Source of the DNA: Desulfobacterium sp.
Lineage (GTDB): Bacteria > Desulfobacterota > Desulfobacteria > Desulfobacterales > Desulfobacteraceae
Direction of reading: 5' to 3'
Length of the DNA stretch: 64,000 nt
Assembly (NCBI GenBank): GCA_016342325.1
Contig: JAEINR010000010.1
Location: 1-64,000 of the forward strand
Position numbers and translations under genes: made by a program. Shown one piece after another: positions 44,462 through 48,416 of this stretch (the stretch's first letter is position 1; the number at the start of each line of letters is the position of its first letter). Under the pieces are notes generated by a model. The model saw only the letters and a list, made by a program, of their open reading frames with translations, was not told the DNA's origin and ran no database searches.

Positions 44462-45469
44462 TCAAGTATTTTTATTTCTAACACTCACCAAGCATACGGG
44501 AATTTCCCTGTTTGAGCCCCGGATCAGTGCGTTTTTTCTGGCCTCCCCATGGGTCGGACAGAATATATTGCTCACATGATCACCCGAAAAAAGATAGAGC
44601 TGAATATCAGCCAGCAGCCCACAGCCATCATCGGCTTCCATCAAGTCATTCTTTTCCGGAGTGTTGCCGGAGATGGCGTTTTCCATGAGTTTTATCAACC
44701 GTCCCTGCCACCCGGCGCTGCGATCACAACACCCTTCATGCACTTTAAAATTCTCAATGTCAAGAACCTTTATCGACTTTTTTGCCTTTGAGTGAAAATA
44801 GTCCATTACGGCCTGACTGGTGGTAACAGGTACAAGAGGTTCCCATTCCCTGAGAACATCATTTTTTGAATGAAAAAACCGAGCCCAGGCAAGGATTCGC
44901 TGTTCAGTCATGACCCTGCCCTGATCCTGATCCTGGATGGCGGAATCACCCCCCTGTTCCAGCAACGACGCCCCCTCCTTCAGAACGGAGAAGAGAGCCG
45001 CTTCATCCCTGGCAATGGCGCCAAGCCTTATGTTGACATCCTCCGTGTCCGCATCAGACTCCTGGGCGGTCCGCAGAAAAACAAGGGCGTTGAGAAACGC
45101 CTCCCCAGAATCCCCAGGGTCTACGGTTGCCCGGGCTTCGGAACGATCCACCCCGGCCCCTTTTTCAATCCTCGATTTCAGTGTTGCCACCCCGGTGTCA
45201 CTGGTAAAATAAGGGGTCTCCCGAACCCGGGCTTTCAATTGGCCGGGCCGGCCCTGGTTCACCCCGGCCCACTGCTTGTAATCCGCCACCGTTGCAAGGG
45301 TCGGCATGAGCTCATCCGGTGTTGGCAAAACAACGTCAATATCCGGGTTGCGGGCCTCAACTTCCTTTGGCGAACTCACGCTCAAGTGGCAAAAACGGTT
45401 AAAACAGGTGAGCAGCGCCCTGGCATCCTGTTGTCGTACATGGGTAAACGGAAAAAACAGAGGTTTCAT
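44462..45469 (-). CDS. Hypothetical 335-aa protein downstream of the CysK-CysRS fusion
   Basis: I do not recognise this family. The protein is about 335 residues, without signal peptide or membrane span. It has an N-terminal segment LFFPFTHVRQQDARALLTCF, a long helical middle and a C-terminal part with a few cysteines (HEGCCDRS, DDGCGLLAD, NIFCPTHGEA). The repeated mention of Cys and His pairs could mean metal binding, but the spacing does not match a known motif. It follows the fusion gene by direct overlap of the possible GTG start with that stop; the ATG at 45469 is preferred. Co-transcription with the fusion and tmk is likely. Confidence 0.7.
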   Translation of the reverse strand: MKPLFFPFTHVRQQDARALLTCFNRFCHLSVSSPKEVEARNPDIDVVLPTPDELMPTLATVADYKQWAGVNQGRPGQLKARVRETPYFTSDTGVATLKSRIEKGAGVDRSEARATVDPGDSGEAFLNALVFLRTAQESDADTEDVNIRLGAIARDEAALFSVLKEGASLLEQGGDSAIQDQDQGRVMTEQRILAWARFFHSKNDVLREWEPLVPVTTSQAVMDYFHSKAKKSIKVLDIENFKVHEGCCDRSAGWQGRLIKLMENAISGNTPEKNDLMEADDGCGLLADIQLYLFSGDHVSNIFCPTHGEARKNALIRGSNREIPVCLVSVRNKNT

Positions 45470-45474
45470 TTGTC

Positions 45475-47754
45475 TCACACCTTTTTATCGTTAATCTCAA
45501 CACCCATGGCCACAAGCTCCTCCCTGAGCCGGTCGGAAAGCGCCCACTCCCTGTTCAGCCGGGCGATTTCCCGCTGTTCCAGGAGTTTTGCGGCCTTGGC
45601 AGAAAGAACCTTACCGGGATAAAAGTCGAATATTTTAAGTACGCTGTCCATCTCCTTAAAAAGATCGATAACCGCCCGGGCGCCAGCAGGATCGATCCCC
45701 TGGGTATCCATGAGCCGGTTCAACTCCTTCACCCCTTTGAACAACACCGCCATCACCCCCGGAATTTTCAGATCATCATCCATGGAAGTTAAAAAGCCTT
45801 GCTTGATGTCATAGAGCAGTTGGTCAAGCTCCTCGTACCGCTCTCCTGACACCACACCGGCAAGGGCCCCAAGACACCGGTCTAGTTTAAACAGGGAGCG
45901 CCTTGCGTCGGCAAGGGACTGGCTTGAGAGGGTTAGGGGCTTGCGGTAATGACAGGAGAGAAGCCAAAATCGGACCAGCCGGGGCTCCCATCCAAGGTTT
46001 TCCAGGAGGTCAAGATCAATATCCGAAAGCGCATCCGCCCCAAGGCTGCCGTCGTAGTTCACTGTGTCACAGTGCATCCACACCCTGGCAAGGGGCTCTC
46101 CCGCGATTGCCCGGCACATGGCGTTCTCGTTCTCATGGTGGGGAAACAACAACTCCCTTGAGCCGGTGTGGATGTCAAATCCCTCGCCATGGAAATTCAT
46201 GGCCATGGCCGCACACTGGAGATGGAGGGAGGGGCGGACGTTTCCCCACTTGGTTTTCACACACACACCCCGTTTAAGCTCGGAGAGGCCCACCCGTTTC
46301 AACAGGGTGAAATCCTTGGGGTTCTCCTTTTCATAGTCGTCCAGATCCACGGTGGCACCCACCCGGATCTTGTCCAGGTCCACCCCGGAAAGGGATCCAT
46401 ACCCAGGAAGGCTCGAGATGTCAAAATAGAGGGACCTGAGTTTCTCATAGGCATATCCGTTCTCACTGAGCTTTTCGGCAAGGGCCACCATCTCGTCCAC
46501 ATGGTCCGAAACAAGGGGATAGGACTGGGCGGTCCTGACACCAAGGGAATCAAGATCCCGTTTGAACGCTTCCACAAAGGGCCGGGTAAATTCGGCAACG
46601 GAAATCCCCTCCTGCTCAGACCCCTGGATGGTTTTGTCATCAAGATCCGTGATGTTGACCACATGGTTGACCGAAAGCCGTCGATACTCAAGGTAGCGCA
46701 CAAGAAGGTCGGTGGCGACAAAGCGCCTGAACCGTGAAGGGTCCATGCGCTTGTGAACCGTGGGTCCACAGGTGTAGACGGAGACCTTGCCCTGGGTTTT
46801 GGGTTCAAACCGCTCCTGGCTTCGGGTCAGGGTGTTGTAGAGATCCAGGCTGATATTATCCTTGATCGTGAACAGGGAGGTGGAAAGATACCGCTCACCG
46901 CTGTCAGGGAAGATGGCCACCACCGTACCGGTCTTGATCTTCTTTGCCTCTTCAATGGCAACGGCCATGGCAGCGCCGCTGCTCATCCCCACAAAGAGAC
47001 CCTCACTTCTGGCAAGGTTCCTGGCCGCTTCAAAGGCGGTTTCATCGTCGATGTTCACCTTTTCATCCAGCCGCTTCTTATCAAAGAGGTCCGGGATATA
47101 GGATTCCTTCATGTTCTTGAGTCCCTGGATACCATGGCCCAGATAGGGTTCGGCACAAATGATCCGGATATCGGGATTGAGTTCCTTGAGTTTCCGGGAT
47201 AGCCCCATGAGGGTACCGCTGGTGCCAAGGGTTGCCACCACGCTGGTCACCTTGCCCTGGGTCTGCTCCCAGATCTCCGGGGCTGTGGTCCTGTAGTGGG
47301 CCATCCAGTTGGCATCGTTGTTGTACTGATCTGTCATAAAGTAGCGGTCGGGATTTTCCCGGGCCAGGCGATAGACCTCTTCGATGGCGCCGTCTGATCC
47401 CAGGTGACCCGGGGTGAGCCGGATCTCGGCCCCCCGGGCGCTGAGGATGCTCTTTCTCTCTTCGCTGGCCGATTCGGACATGGCGAGAAGGAGGCTGTAT
47501 CCTTTTTCCGAACAGATCATGGCAAGGCCAATGCCCGTGTTTCCGCTGGTGGCTTCAATCACGGTCTTGCCCGGCACAAGCTCCCCGCTTTTCTCCCCCT
47601 GCTCGATCATGGAGAGGGCCGCCCTGTCCTTAATCGACCCCCCGGGATTCATATACTCAAGCTTGGCAAAGATCCTGACCCCGGGCACCGGATTCATCCG
47701 TTTTATCTCTACCAGGGGGGTGTTTCCGATGAAGTCGAGAATTGAATGGCTCAT
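45475..47754 (-). CDS. Cysteine synthase fused to a cysteinyl-tRNA-synthetase-like domain lacking HIGH and KMSKS
   Basis: The 759-residue protein is a single frame. Residues 1-300 form a full PLP-dependent O-acetylserine sulfhydrylase, with Lys42 in NPGGSIKDR and the TSGNTG loop (69-74). Residues 302-759 align along their length with cysteinyl-tRNA synthetase, including YTCGPTV (327-333), NITDLDDK (367-374) and FDIHTGSRELLFPHHENE (526-543). The HIGH motif is replaced by DPSR (338-341), and the KMSKS loop is replaced by a YDGSLGADAL-like stretch (567-576). The zinc ligands are retained: Cys329, Cys514, His539, Glu543. The tail NREWALSDRLREELVAMG also matches. So the cysteine-binding pocket seems kept while ATP chemistry seems lost. 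It overlaps tmk by 4 bp. A separate true cysS should exist elsewhere. Confidence 0.9.
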   Translation of the reverse strand: MSHSILDFIGNTPLVEIKRMNPVPGVRIFAKLEYMNPGGSIKDRAALSMIEQGEKSGELVPGKTVIEATSGNTGIGLAMICSEKGYSLLLAMSESASEERKSILSARGAEIRLTPGHLGSDGAIEEVYRLARENPDRYFMTDQYNNDANWMAHYRTTAPEIWEQTQGKVTSVVATLGTSGTLMGLSRKLKELNPDIRIICAEPYLGHGIQGLKNMKESYIPDLFDKKRLDEKVNIDDETAFEAARNLARSEGLFVGMSSGAAMAVAIEEAKKIKTGTVVAIFPDSGERYLSTSLFTIKDNISLDLYNTLTRSQERFEPKTQGKVSVYTCGPTVHKRMDPSRFRRFVATDLLVRYLEYRRLSVNHVVNITDLDDKTIQGSEQEGISVAEFTRPFVEAFKRDLDSLGVRTAQSYPLVSDHVDEMVALAEKLSENGYAYEKLRSLYFDISSLPGYGSLSGVDLDKIRVGATVDLDDYEKENPKDFTLLKRVGLSELKRGVCVKTKWGNVRPSLHLQCAAMAMNFHGEGFDIHTGSRELLFPHHENENAMCRAIAGEPLARVWMHCDTVNYDGSLGADALSDIDLDLLENLGWEPRLVRFWLLSCHYRKPLTLSSQSLADARRSLFKLDRCLGALAGVVSGERYEELDQLLYDIKQGFLTSMDDDLKIPGVMAVLFKGVKELNRLMDTQGIDPAGARAVIDLFKEMDSVLKIFDFYPGKVLSAKAAKLLEQREIARLNREWALSDRLREELVAMGVEINDKKV

Positions 47755-48416
47755 GATGCCCTCGTTCCTTTGCCCCGGAGTTCTATCCCAAGGCGGTTGT
47801 TAATTCCGGACACAATCTCTTCAAAAACCTGCTCCTGGGTTCCTGCGGCATCAACCACCAGAAAACGCTCCTTTTCCGCCCTGGCAAGGGCAAGATACCC
47901 TTTCCTCACCCGTTGATGGAATTCAAGGGCCTCCTGCTCGAACCGGGTCTCATCAGCGGTTCTTGCACCTTTTTCCAATGCGCTGAAGGCCCGTTGGAGC
48001 CCGATTTCCGGGTCCAGGTCGAAGAGGACGGTGAGATCAGGCCGAAGATCCTTGACAACCACCGAGTGGATGGTTTCGATCAACCCTTTGGCAATCCCCC
48101 GGGCAGCACCCTGGTAGACAGTGGTGGCGTCGGTAAACCGGTCGCAAAGTACGGTTTTGCCTGCGTTCAACGACGGAAGGACGACTTCAAACAGGTGCTG
48201 GGCCCGATCCGCTCCGTAGAGAAAAAGTTCGCACAAGTCCGACATTCCGCTGTTATCCGGATCAAGAAGGATGGCCCTGATTTTTTTTCCGATAGGGGTA
48301 TCGCCAGGTTCCCTTGTGACAACCGTGTCATACCCGTTTTCACCAAAACAGGCTGACAATCTCCCGATCTGTGTTGTCTTGCCGGAACCTTCTATCCCTT
48401 CAAAGGTGATAAACAT
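47751..48416 (-). CDS. tmk: Thymidylate kinase
   Basis: The 221-residue protein has the P-loop EGIEGSGKTTQ at residues 5-15, the DR motif in CDRFTDATTVYQG, and the lid-region arginines of the bacterial enzyme. It phosphorylates dTMP to dTDP using ATP. GGGAG lies before the ATG. It is the first gene of a minus-strand unit with the CysK-CysRS fusion (4-bp overlap). In related genomes tmk often sits next to holB, ricT and metG. Here these genes lie just beyond lptD on the opposite strand, so the usual cluster seems rearranged. Confidence 0.97.
   Translation of the reverse strand: MFITFEGIEGSGKTTQIGRLSACFGENGYDTVVTREPGDTPIGKKIRAILLDPDNSGMSDLCELFLYGADRAQHLFEVVLPSLNAGKTVLCDRFTDATTVYQGAARGIAKGLIETIHSVVVKDLRPDLTVLFDLDPEIGLQRAFSALEKGARTADETRFEQEALEFHQRVRKGYLALARAEKERFLVVDAAGTQEQVFEEIVSGINNRLGIELRGKGTRAS

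Follow-up and report, generated by a model that had tools for sequence, protein, structure and literature searches.

Regulatory relatives of aminoacyl-tRNA synthetases are known, a close parallel here being HisZ, a HisRS paralog without adenylation activity that, in the passages of a review that treat it, mediates histidine feedback on HisG (PMC9437257). HisZ as described has no anticodon domain, with the exception of HisZ-like proteins of Geobacteraceae, which an excerpt of another paper says keep it (PMC2923632). For CysRS, the paralog table of the review lists MshC and CysRS*, the latter a Desulfobacterales protein that is given there as lacking the anticodon domain and charging SelC* (PMC9437257). 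At the RNA level, T-box riboswitches read tRNA to adjust amino-acid supply, according to a passage on these elements (PMC5951919). Here, we describe a further CysRS relative, encoded on the minus strand at positions 45475..47754 of a 64,000-nucleotide stretch of Desulfobacterium sp. (GenBank assembly GCA_016342325.1, contig JAEINR010000010.1, positions 1 to 64,000; this whole stretch is called the window). The gene specifies a 759-amino-acid fusion of a cysteine synthase and a CysRS-like pseudo-synthetase, and we found that the members of this family have largely lost the HIGH and KMSKS motifs and have kept the anticodon-reading residues in all 107 aligned fusions.

The open frame begins with an ATG at 47754 and runs to a stop at 45475-45477 with no internal stop, and the plus strand at these coordinates holds many stops. 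Its first part (residues 4-295; 46870..47745, on the minus strand like all features below) is a CysM-like, pyridoxal phosphate (PLP)-dependent cysteine synthase domain, assigned by Pfam and NCBIfam matches and by residues kept across the fusions. Pfam places PALP at residues 6-284 (248 bits), the NCBIfam cysKM cut-off is passed (358.8 versus 344.15 bits), and the cysM equivalog cut-off is missed (347.2 versus 394.2 bits). A short linker (residues 286-299; 46858..46899), of low confidence with a predicted local distance difference test (pLDDT) score below 50, joins it to the CysRS-like domain (residues 303-759; 45478..46848), which matches CysRS from end to end. Within this domain, Pfam finds tRNA-synt_1e at 316-618 (232.9 bits, cut-off 27), a DALR-type helical bundle at 654-709 (DALR_2, 33.6 bits, cut-off 22; 45628..45795), and the anticodon-binding domain at 717-758 (CysS_C, 22.2 bits, slightly below the cut-off of 23; 45481..45606); the NCBIfam cysS cut-off (TIGR00435) is missed (315.3 versus 340 bits). 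Since the domain passes a Pfam cut-off for CysRS, the protein is readily mistaken for an additional CysRS. An AlphaFold model (12 sequences, mean pLDDT 83.7, predicted template modelling score (pTM) 0.58) contains both folds, and its listed structure matches include CysRS, MshC, and cysteine-synthase-type chains. The synthase part matches 2bhs, an O-acetylserine sulfhydrylase (OASS) of the B type, over residues 3-296 (Z 37.0, 288 aligned, root-mean-square deviation (rmsd) 2.0), with 39-44% identity to the listed CysM structures, and residues 302-759 match CysRS 1u0b_B (Z 46.1, 435 aligned, rmsd 4.5), so that the predicted structure retains the CysRS fold through the C-terminal domain.

An earlier note, made from the letters of the window without database searches, had described one frame joining a complete OASS (Lys42, TSGNTG) to a full-length CysRS-like domain that had exchanged HIGH for DPSR and lost the KMSKS loop, and with them its ATP-binding signatures, and that still carried the zinc ligands; every part of this description was confirmed. 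In alignments with the native cysS and E. coli CysRS, the HIGH position reads DPSR (338-341; 46732..46743), and the stretch of the former KMSKS loop (567-577; 46024..46056) reads L571-G-A-D. The zinc ligands are Cys329 (46768..46770), Cys514 (46213..46215), and His539 with Glu543 (46126..46140), corresponding to E. coli Cys28, Cys209, His234, and Glu238. The anticodon set is likewise present: R728, R732, W737, D741, R744, and D756 stand at the places of E. coli R423, R427, W432, D436, R439, and D451. In the portion of the literature that describes the E. coli CysRS-tRNA-Cys complex, Arg427, Trp432, and Asp436, plus Arg423 via water, contact G34 (PMC12684709), and all four residues are found in the window protein.

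Mapping these positions across the family, we aligned 107 fusions, the window copy included, with 71 stand-alone CysRS and excluded one truncated locus (L035). A pattern scan with FPHHENE and YEKxNP[RK]DF supplied 69 stand-alone loci from the best 80 of at least 592 matches, the phylum fusions comprise 27 new loci from a search and 40 picked by hand, with the most divergent included, and the query alignment used 24 of 29 domains. The catalytic signatures have decayed: H.G[HN] is found in 5 of the 107 fusions versus all 71 stand-alone CysRS, KMSKS in none versus 65 of 71, and the relaxed pattern [KR]MS[KR]S in 15 versus the same 65. The anticodon set (R423, R/K427, an aromatic W/F/Y at 432, D436, R439, and D451) is present in 107/107 fusions and 71/71 stand-alone CysRS. 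The full zinc set of two cysteines, histidine, and glutamate (CCHE) is found in 64 fusions versus all 71 stand-alone CysRS, where His234 and Glu238 are conserved largely by construction, because FPHHENE was used to fetch that set. Taken singly, the zinc ligands are kept in 87 (Cys329), 92 (Cys514), 107 (His539), and 65 (Glu543) of the 107 fusions. None of the 29 fusions from the window's order, its own among them, has KMSKS, and the four ligands are kept in 28, 29, 29, and 26; because these relatives share the pattern, the loss of KMSKS with zinc retention in the window is not due to chance. Both zinc cysteines are gone from 15 fusions of the whole family, all of which keep the anticodon set; none of them has a KMSKS-type motif, and HLGH remains in one (L046).

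The same trend is seen by region. Among 82 positions that are at least 95% conserved in stand-alone CysRS, retention over the 107 fusions is worst in the KMSKS region (0.53) and best in the anticodon domain (0.93, from only five positions). Zinc-site retention as the defining trait of the family was considered and rejected, since 43 of the 107 fusions miss the full set. Conservation thus indicates that the anticodon set, not the zinc site, is what selection keeps. Conserved basic residues have been acquired in the fusion family as well: R344 (104/107), R487 (106/107), and K494 (102/107), the last two within a family-specific basic insert in the connective peptide (CP) region (residues 486-497, K486 R487 ... 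K494 R495 G496; 46264..46299), where Gly496 is found in 107/107 fusions and none of the 71 stand-alone CysRS has a residue in column 494 or 496. As a speculation, the basic residues and the CP insert might make contact with the acceptor arm of the tRNA or with the synthase.

Nearly all fusion-bearing genomes searched also have a CysRS match apart from the fusion. In the window's own genome, contig C46 holds a separate cysS gene whose product has both motifs, HIGH and KMSKS. Of 60 fusion-bearing phylum genomes, 58 gave a separate CysRS match with a high score; among the 60, G298 is an incomplete draft, G385 has a second match that was not examined, and the match in G332 is partial. Within the same order, all 36 genomes searched gave a separate CysRS match, the fusion having been detected in 26 of them and not in the other 10. 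Both are counts of matches as such rather than of checked motifs. Thus, the fusion is not needed for charging. Five of the 36 (G024, G030, G032, G036, and G040) have a stand-alone match of a lower-scoring type, 312-322 bits versus about 449-480 in the other 31. Extra short CysRS-like frames of 421-476 amino acids accompany cysS and the fusion at G557:C6, G559:C34, G041:C61, and G578:C32, and those of 421-424 amino acids may be CysRS* without an anticodon domain. Ordinary tRNA-Cys(GCA) genes are present. No special second tRNA-Cys was seen among the tRNA genes in the 20 stretches scanned (part of 62 RF00005 matches), a tRNA-Cys pattern search found nothing, and a neighborhood scan, with flanks of varying length, found no tRNA-Cys next to the fusion. 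One locus of the window's own genome (L197, contig C23:105200-105900) holds an alternating tRNA-Gly(GCC)/tRNA-Cys(GCA) array of three Gly and two Cys genes at about 217 bases per unit.

The synthase, for its part, appears catalytically intact. Lys42, the PLP-binding lysine (47629..47631), the TSGNTG loop at 69-74, and the phosphate loop GTSGT are all present in the window copy; K42 and S70-G-N-T-G74 are kept in 106/106 fusions, one further fusion being cut before residue 85 by a contig end, and G177-T and G180-T (GT.GT), S258, and D284 are kept in 107/107. Lysine is also found in 107/107 fusions at Lys213 (47116..47118), the site at which CysM/OASS-B has an arginine associated with the use of O-phosphoserine; it aligns with the Arg of LRNM in M. 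tuberculosis CysM, annotated in PDB as cysteine synthase B / O-phosphoserine sulfhydrylase. Four cysE-adjacent synthases (L206, L208, L209, and L210) read HKIQGIGAGF there, with Gly at the Lys213 position. Six stand-alone synthases with QGLKN come from phylum genomes without a fusion match. An excerpt on OASS-B gives this arginine a role in O-phosphoserine selection in some microbes (PMC3805590), and C. jejuni CysM, whose residue at this position was not compared, is described in a passage of another study as using O-acetylserine only (PMC9855970), so that Lys213 is a mere hint of O-phosphoserine use.

The distribution of CysE points the same way. We searched 83 fusion-bearing genomes, all at least 90% complete, with the CysE profile TIGR01172 (threshold 1e-20 in the first batch, 1e-15 in the second) and the synthase profile TIGR01136. 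A CysE-like match was found in 44, of which 43 have a further synthase match; in the other 39 the fusion is the only synthase match in 38. The exceptions are G009, with a weak partial CysE match and no second synthase, and G418, with one extra synthase and no CysE-like match. In the first batch, the distance between the CysE-like gene and a stand-alone synthase is no more than about 510 bases in 16/16 cases. A second synthase is therefore strongly associated with a CysE-like match (43/44 versus 1/39; Fisher p 2e-21, for related genomes with kinship uncorrected). Lys213 and the absence of CysE together hint at O-phosphoserine as the predicted substrate of the fusion.

CysE feedback inhibition normally controls the cysteine pathway; where CysE is absent, as in some of these genomes, a control point on the synthase would therefore make sense. 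We give about an even chance to the reading that the fusion is a CysE-independent cysteine synthase whose activity is set by its pseudo-CysRS in response to tRNA-Cys or to the charging of that tRNA. The CysRS-like domain would no longer make cysteinyl-adenylate, its retained anticodon module would bind tRNA-Cys by the GCA anticodon, and the tRNA 3' end would be placed near the old active site, where zinc, if kept as in the window, could recognize or hold the cysteinyl group with no ATP involved. The attached synthase would then respond allosterically, up or down, to the binding of tRNA in its charged or uncharged form, which would supply feedback where the usual control point is missing. From the residues kept, we infer tRNA binding as the leading candidate for the retained activity, one that the earlier note had not considered. 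That note had proposed a domain that binds cysteine without activating it and acts as a sensor or regulator of the synthase; a regulatory role is still the natural reading, and what finds no support is cysteine binding at the zinc site as the kept function, with the full zinc set in 64/107 and the anticodon set in 107/107 fusions (zinc being mostly kept in nearer relatives). More tentatively, and as a possibility that we hold at well below even chances, the protein could be a protein-level T-box, in which the pseudo-CysRS would read tRNA-Cys charging, set the synthase rate in cis, and replace the missing CysE feedback across the class and its phylum relatives.

Several observations weigh against tRNA sensing. 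In 40 class-like fusions, mean retention in the anticodon domain is 0.81, less than in the first Rossmann half (0.87) or the DALR bundle (0.85); the shortfall is due to G455, a residue of the short tail that follows Asp451, which only 5% of them keep. Stand-alone CysRS conserve the anticodon residues as well, and folding may account for the retention of some of them. Three fusions at the less decayed end of the series (L123, L130, and L131) keep HLGN, KMSRS, and CCHE and might still charge tRNA. With a pTM of 0.58, the model fixes neither the packing of the two domains nor a signal path between them. The CysE-like matches nearly all fall below the NCBIfam cut-off (over it in 0/25 and 1/58 genomes), and control genomes give a CysE-profile match in 10/14; it is thus their similarity and position that make these genes CysE-like. 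The search could overlook a diverged CysE, and kinship means that the genomes do not count as independent. Finally, a tether without regulation would leave the same conservation and would be indistinguishable by sequence.

Such a tether, or channel, in which the domain holds the synthase on tRNA-Cys, near translation or CysRS, with no allosteric control, is in our estimate unlikely. It shares the anticodon conservation, and, to judge from the relatives whose motifs are almost intact, the ancestor may have had a more complete CysRS, but the fusion and the native CysRS would compete for one anticodon, and contact with the native cysS product was neither looked for nor seen. Similarly improbable is a free-cysteine sensor, whose zinc site would bind cysteine and inhibit the synthase with tRNA uninvolved. 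Such a sensor would not require HIGH or KMSKS, it has a precedent in HisZ acting on HisG (PMC9437257, in the passages on HisZ), and the window has all four zinc ligands, which the 40 class-like fusions keep at 95%, 97%, 100%, and 90%; however, the complete set is limited to 64/107, and the 15 fusions that have lost both cysteines still have the anticodon set.

The remaining explanations give the domain a chemistry of its own. That it is a working CysRS in a plain bifunctional enzyme is very unlikely: a functional CysRS in the window was rejected on its motifs (DPSR for HIGH, no KMSKS), K269 is kept in 2% of fusions and W184/G201/Q241 in 0%, and a separate CysRS match is present in the genomes counted above, leaving the full-length domain with its zinc site and the three relatives that retain HLGN/KMSRS/CCHE to speak for it. 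We assign just as little probability to chemistry on the tRNA, in which the PLP domain would act on an amino acid attached to tRNA-Cys and so provide, next to SepRS/SepCysS, a second way of making Cys-tRNA-Cys that is not homologous to it. In this synthase family the TSGNTG loop binds a free carboxylate, which on tRNA is esterified, and with a separate CysRS match in 94 of the 96 genomes searched there is no evident need for such a route. What favors it is the joining of a sulfhydrylase to a tRNA-reading module, the 39 of 83 fusion genomes without a CysE-like match, and the opinion of other authors, in an excerpt of their paper, that diverse RNA-dependent routes are possible (PMC5424206). Least probable to us is that the protein makes cysteine persulfide in the manner of CARS or carries out some other new small-molecule reaction; the persulfide idea had been raised in the earlier note and is now weakened. 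A PLP domain beside a zinc/thiol site is compatible with sulfur chemistry, but the lysines of the KIIK and KMSKS motifs that CARS persulfide activity is said to need are lost, KIIK having become KTIQ and KMSKS being gone, and some lineages have lost the zinc and retained the anticodon set.

The fusion is widely distributed. Among 38 genomes of relatives (the window's own included), it was found in 33, in a few of them in pieces, and was not found in G005, G006, G013, G016, and G035. In the class, the fusion query matches 258 of 291 genomes at E 1e-110, some of the matches being contig-cut fragments, and 182 of the 200 genomes that are at least 90% complete and at most 5% contaminated. In the phylum, 169 of 297 genomes match at E 1e-90, weaker matches being stand-alone synthases. 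Named relatives include records of Desulfobacula, Desulforapulum autotrophicum, Desulfocapsa, and Candidatus Desulfobulbus rimicarensis, from which we take the fusion to belong to Desulfobacterales and their kin. A tree built from the CysRS part unites the 107 fusions in a single clade (support 0.875) that contains none of the 71 stand-alone CysRS, a result which, together with the wide presence, suggests a single old fusion that has been widely kept. The fusions and a 20-sequence set of HIGN-type CysRS (e.g., L047, L050, L054, and L057) form one clade with support 1.0, the HIGN-type set as a clade of its own having support of only 0.124. Duplication of the native cysS as the origin of the domain was examined and is not supported, since native cysS falls outside that joint clade. 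No fusion match was found among 72,556 plasmid records at E 1e-100. A second fusion copy in a genome of the same genus (G002, contig C1:2259156-2262964) is 55% identical and interrupted after about residue 60, with an intact copy elsewhere in that genome. Searches aimed at the fusion found no account of it in the titles and abstract openings of an open-access library, which lacks most subscription papers.

On both sides, the fusion gene overlaps its neighbors by four bases, as in a tightly coupled operon. The upstream gene (47751..48416, minus strand), which by its sequence is probably tmk, belongs to a cluster found at position -1 in 17 of 103 loci; neighborhood data cover 103 of the 107 loci, four having no neighborhood call. 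The downstream gene (44462..45478, minus strand) encodes a 338-amino-acid protein and is a recurrent neighbor: in at least 36 of 103 loci, a lower bound since many loci have only 1.5 kb flanks, a member of its cluster is found no more than two genes away from the fusion, invariably in the same orientation, and in four it is directly upstream. The family has an F-P-F-T start motif, the window's member has no match in Pfam, NCBIfam, or PDB, and its AlphaFold model (pLDDT 33) is too poor to use.

As judged from its sequence relatives, the fusion is real, old, and widespread, and its interpretation shifts from cysteine binding to a proposed reading of tRNA-Cys. Under selection, a synthetase seems to have kept its tRNA-reading part while its chemistry decayed, and it has come to be attached to the enzyme that produces its own amino acid. 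If tRNA does control the synthase, the demand of translation would be coupled to amino-acid supply directly and at the post-translational level; the fusion also suggests how organisms without CysE make and control cysteine.

Compared with known systems, the C-terminal part resembles stand-alone bacterial CysRS (1u0b, 8qhp) in its full-length fold, DALR bundle, anticodon domain, and, in the window, zinc ligands, and differs in having lost HIGH and KMSKS and in sitting behind a cysteine synthase in genomes with a separate cysS. The N-terminal part resembles CysM/OASS-B, including M. tuberculosis CysM, in its catalytic residues and in a basic residue, Lys213, where CysM has Arg, and differs in its C-terminal pseudo-CysRS. 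HisZ may be alike, and only in how it works: both are synthetase relatives without the adenylation motifs of their class, and in HisZ this serves control of its own amino acid's pathway. HisZ is a class II relative and a separate subunit, described without an anticodon domain, whereas the fusion is class I, would act in cis, and has kept that domain, for which the HisZ-like proteins of Geobacteraceae are a partial precedent. MshC, of mycothiol synthesis, keeps its ligase chemistry, unlike the fusion; the NCBIfam mycothiol_MshC cut-off is missed by far (141.9 versus 485.1 bits), the MshC sequence match to the window domain ends at residue 323 of 460, and the structural match goes no further than model residue 710 and so does not reach the anticodon domain. 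That domain (717-758 in the fusion) is missing from CysRS*. In logic, the proposed mechanism is like that of the T-box and of GCN2, a tRNA-charging sensor, although the fusion would act on a biosynthetic enzyme rather than on transcription or translation and has no homology to T-box RNA. Among CysRS paralogs, the fusion is the converse of MshC and CysRS*, with the anticodon module kept and the chemistry lost.

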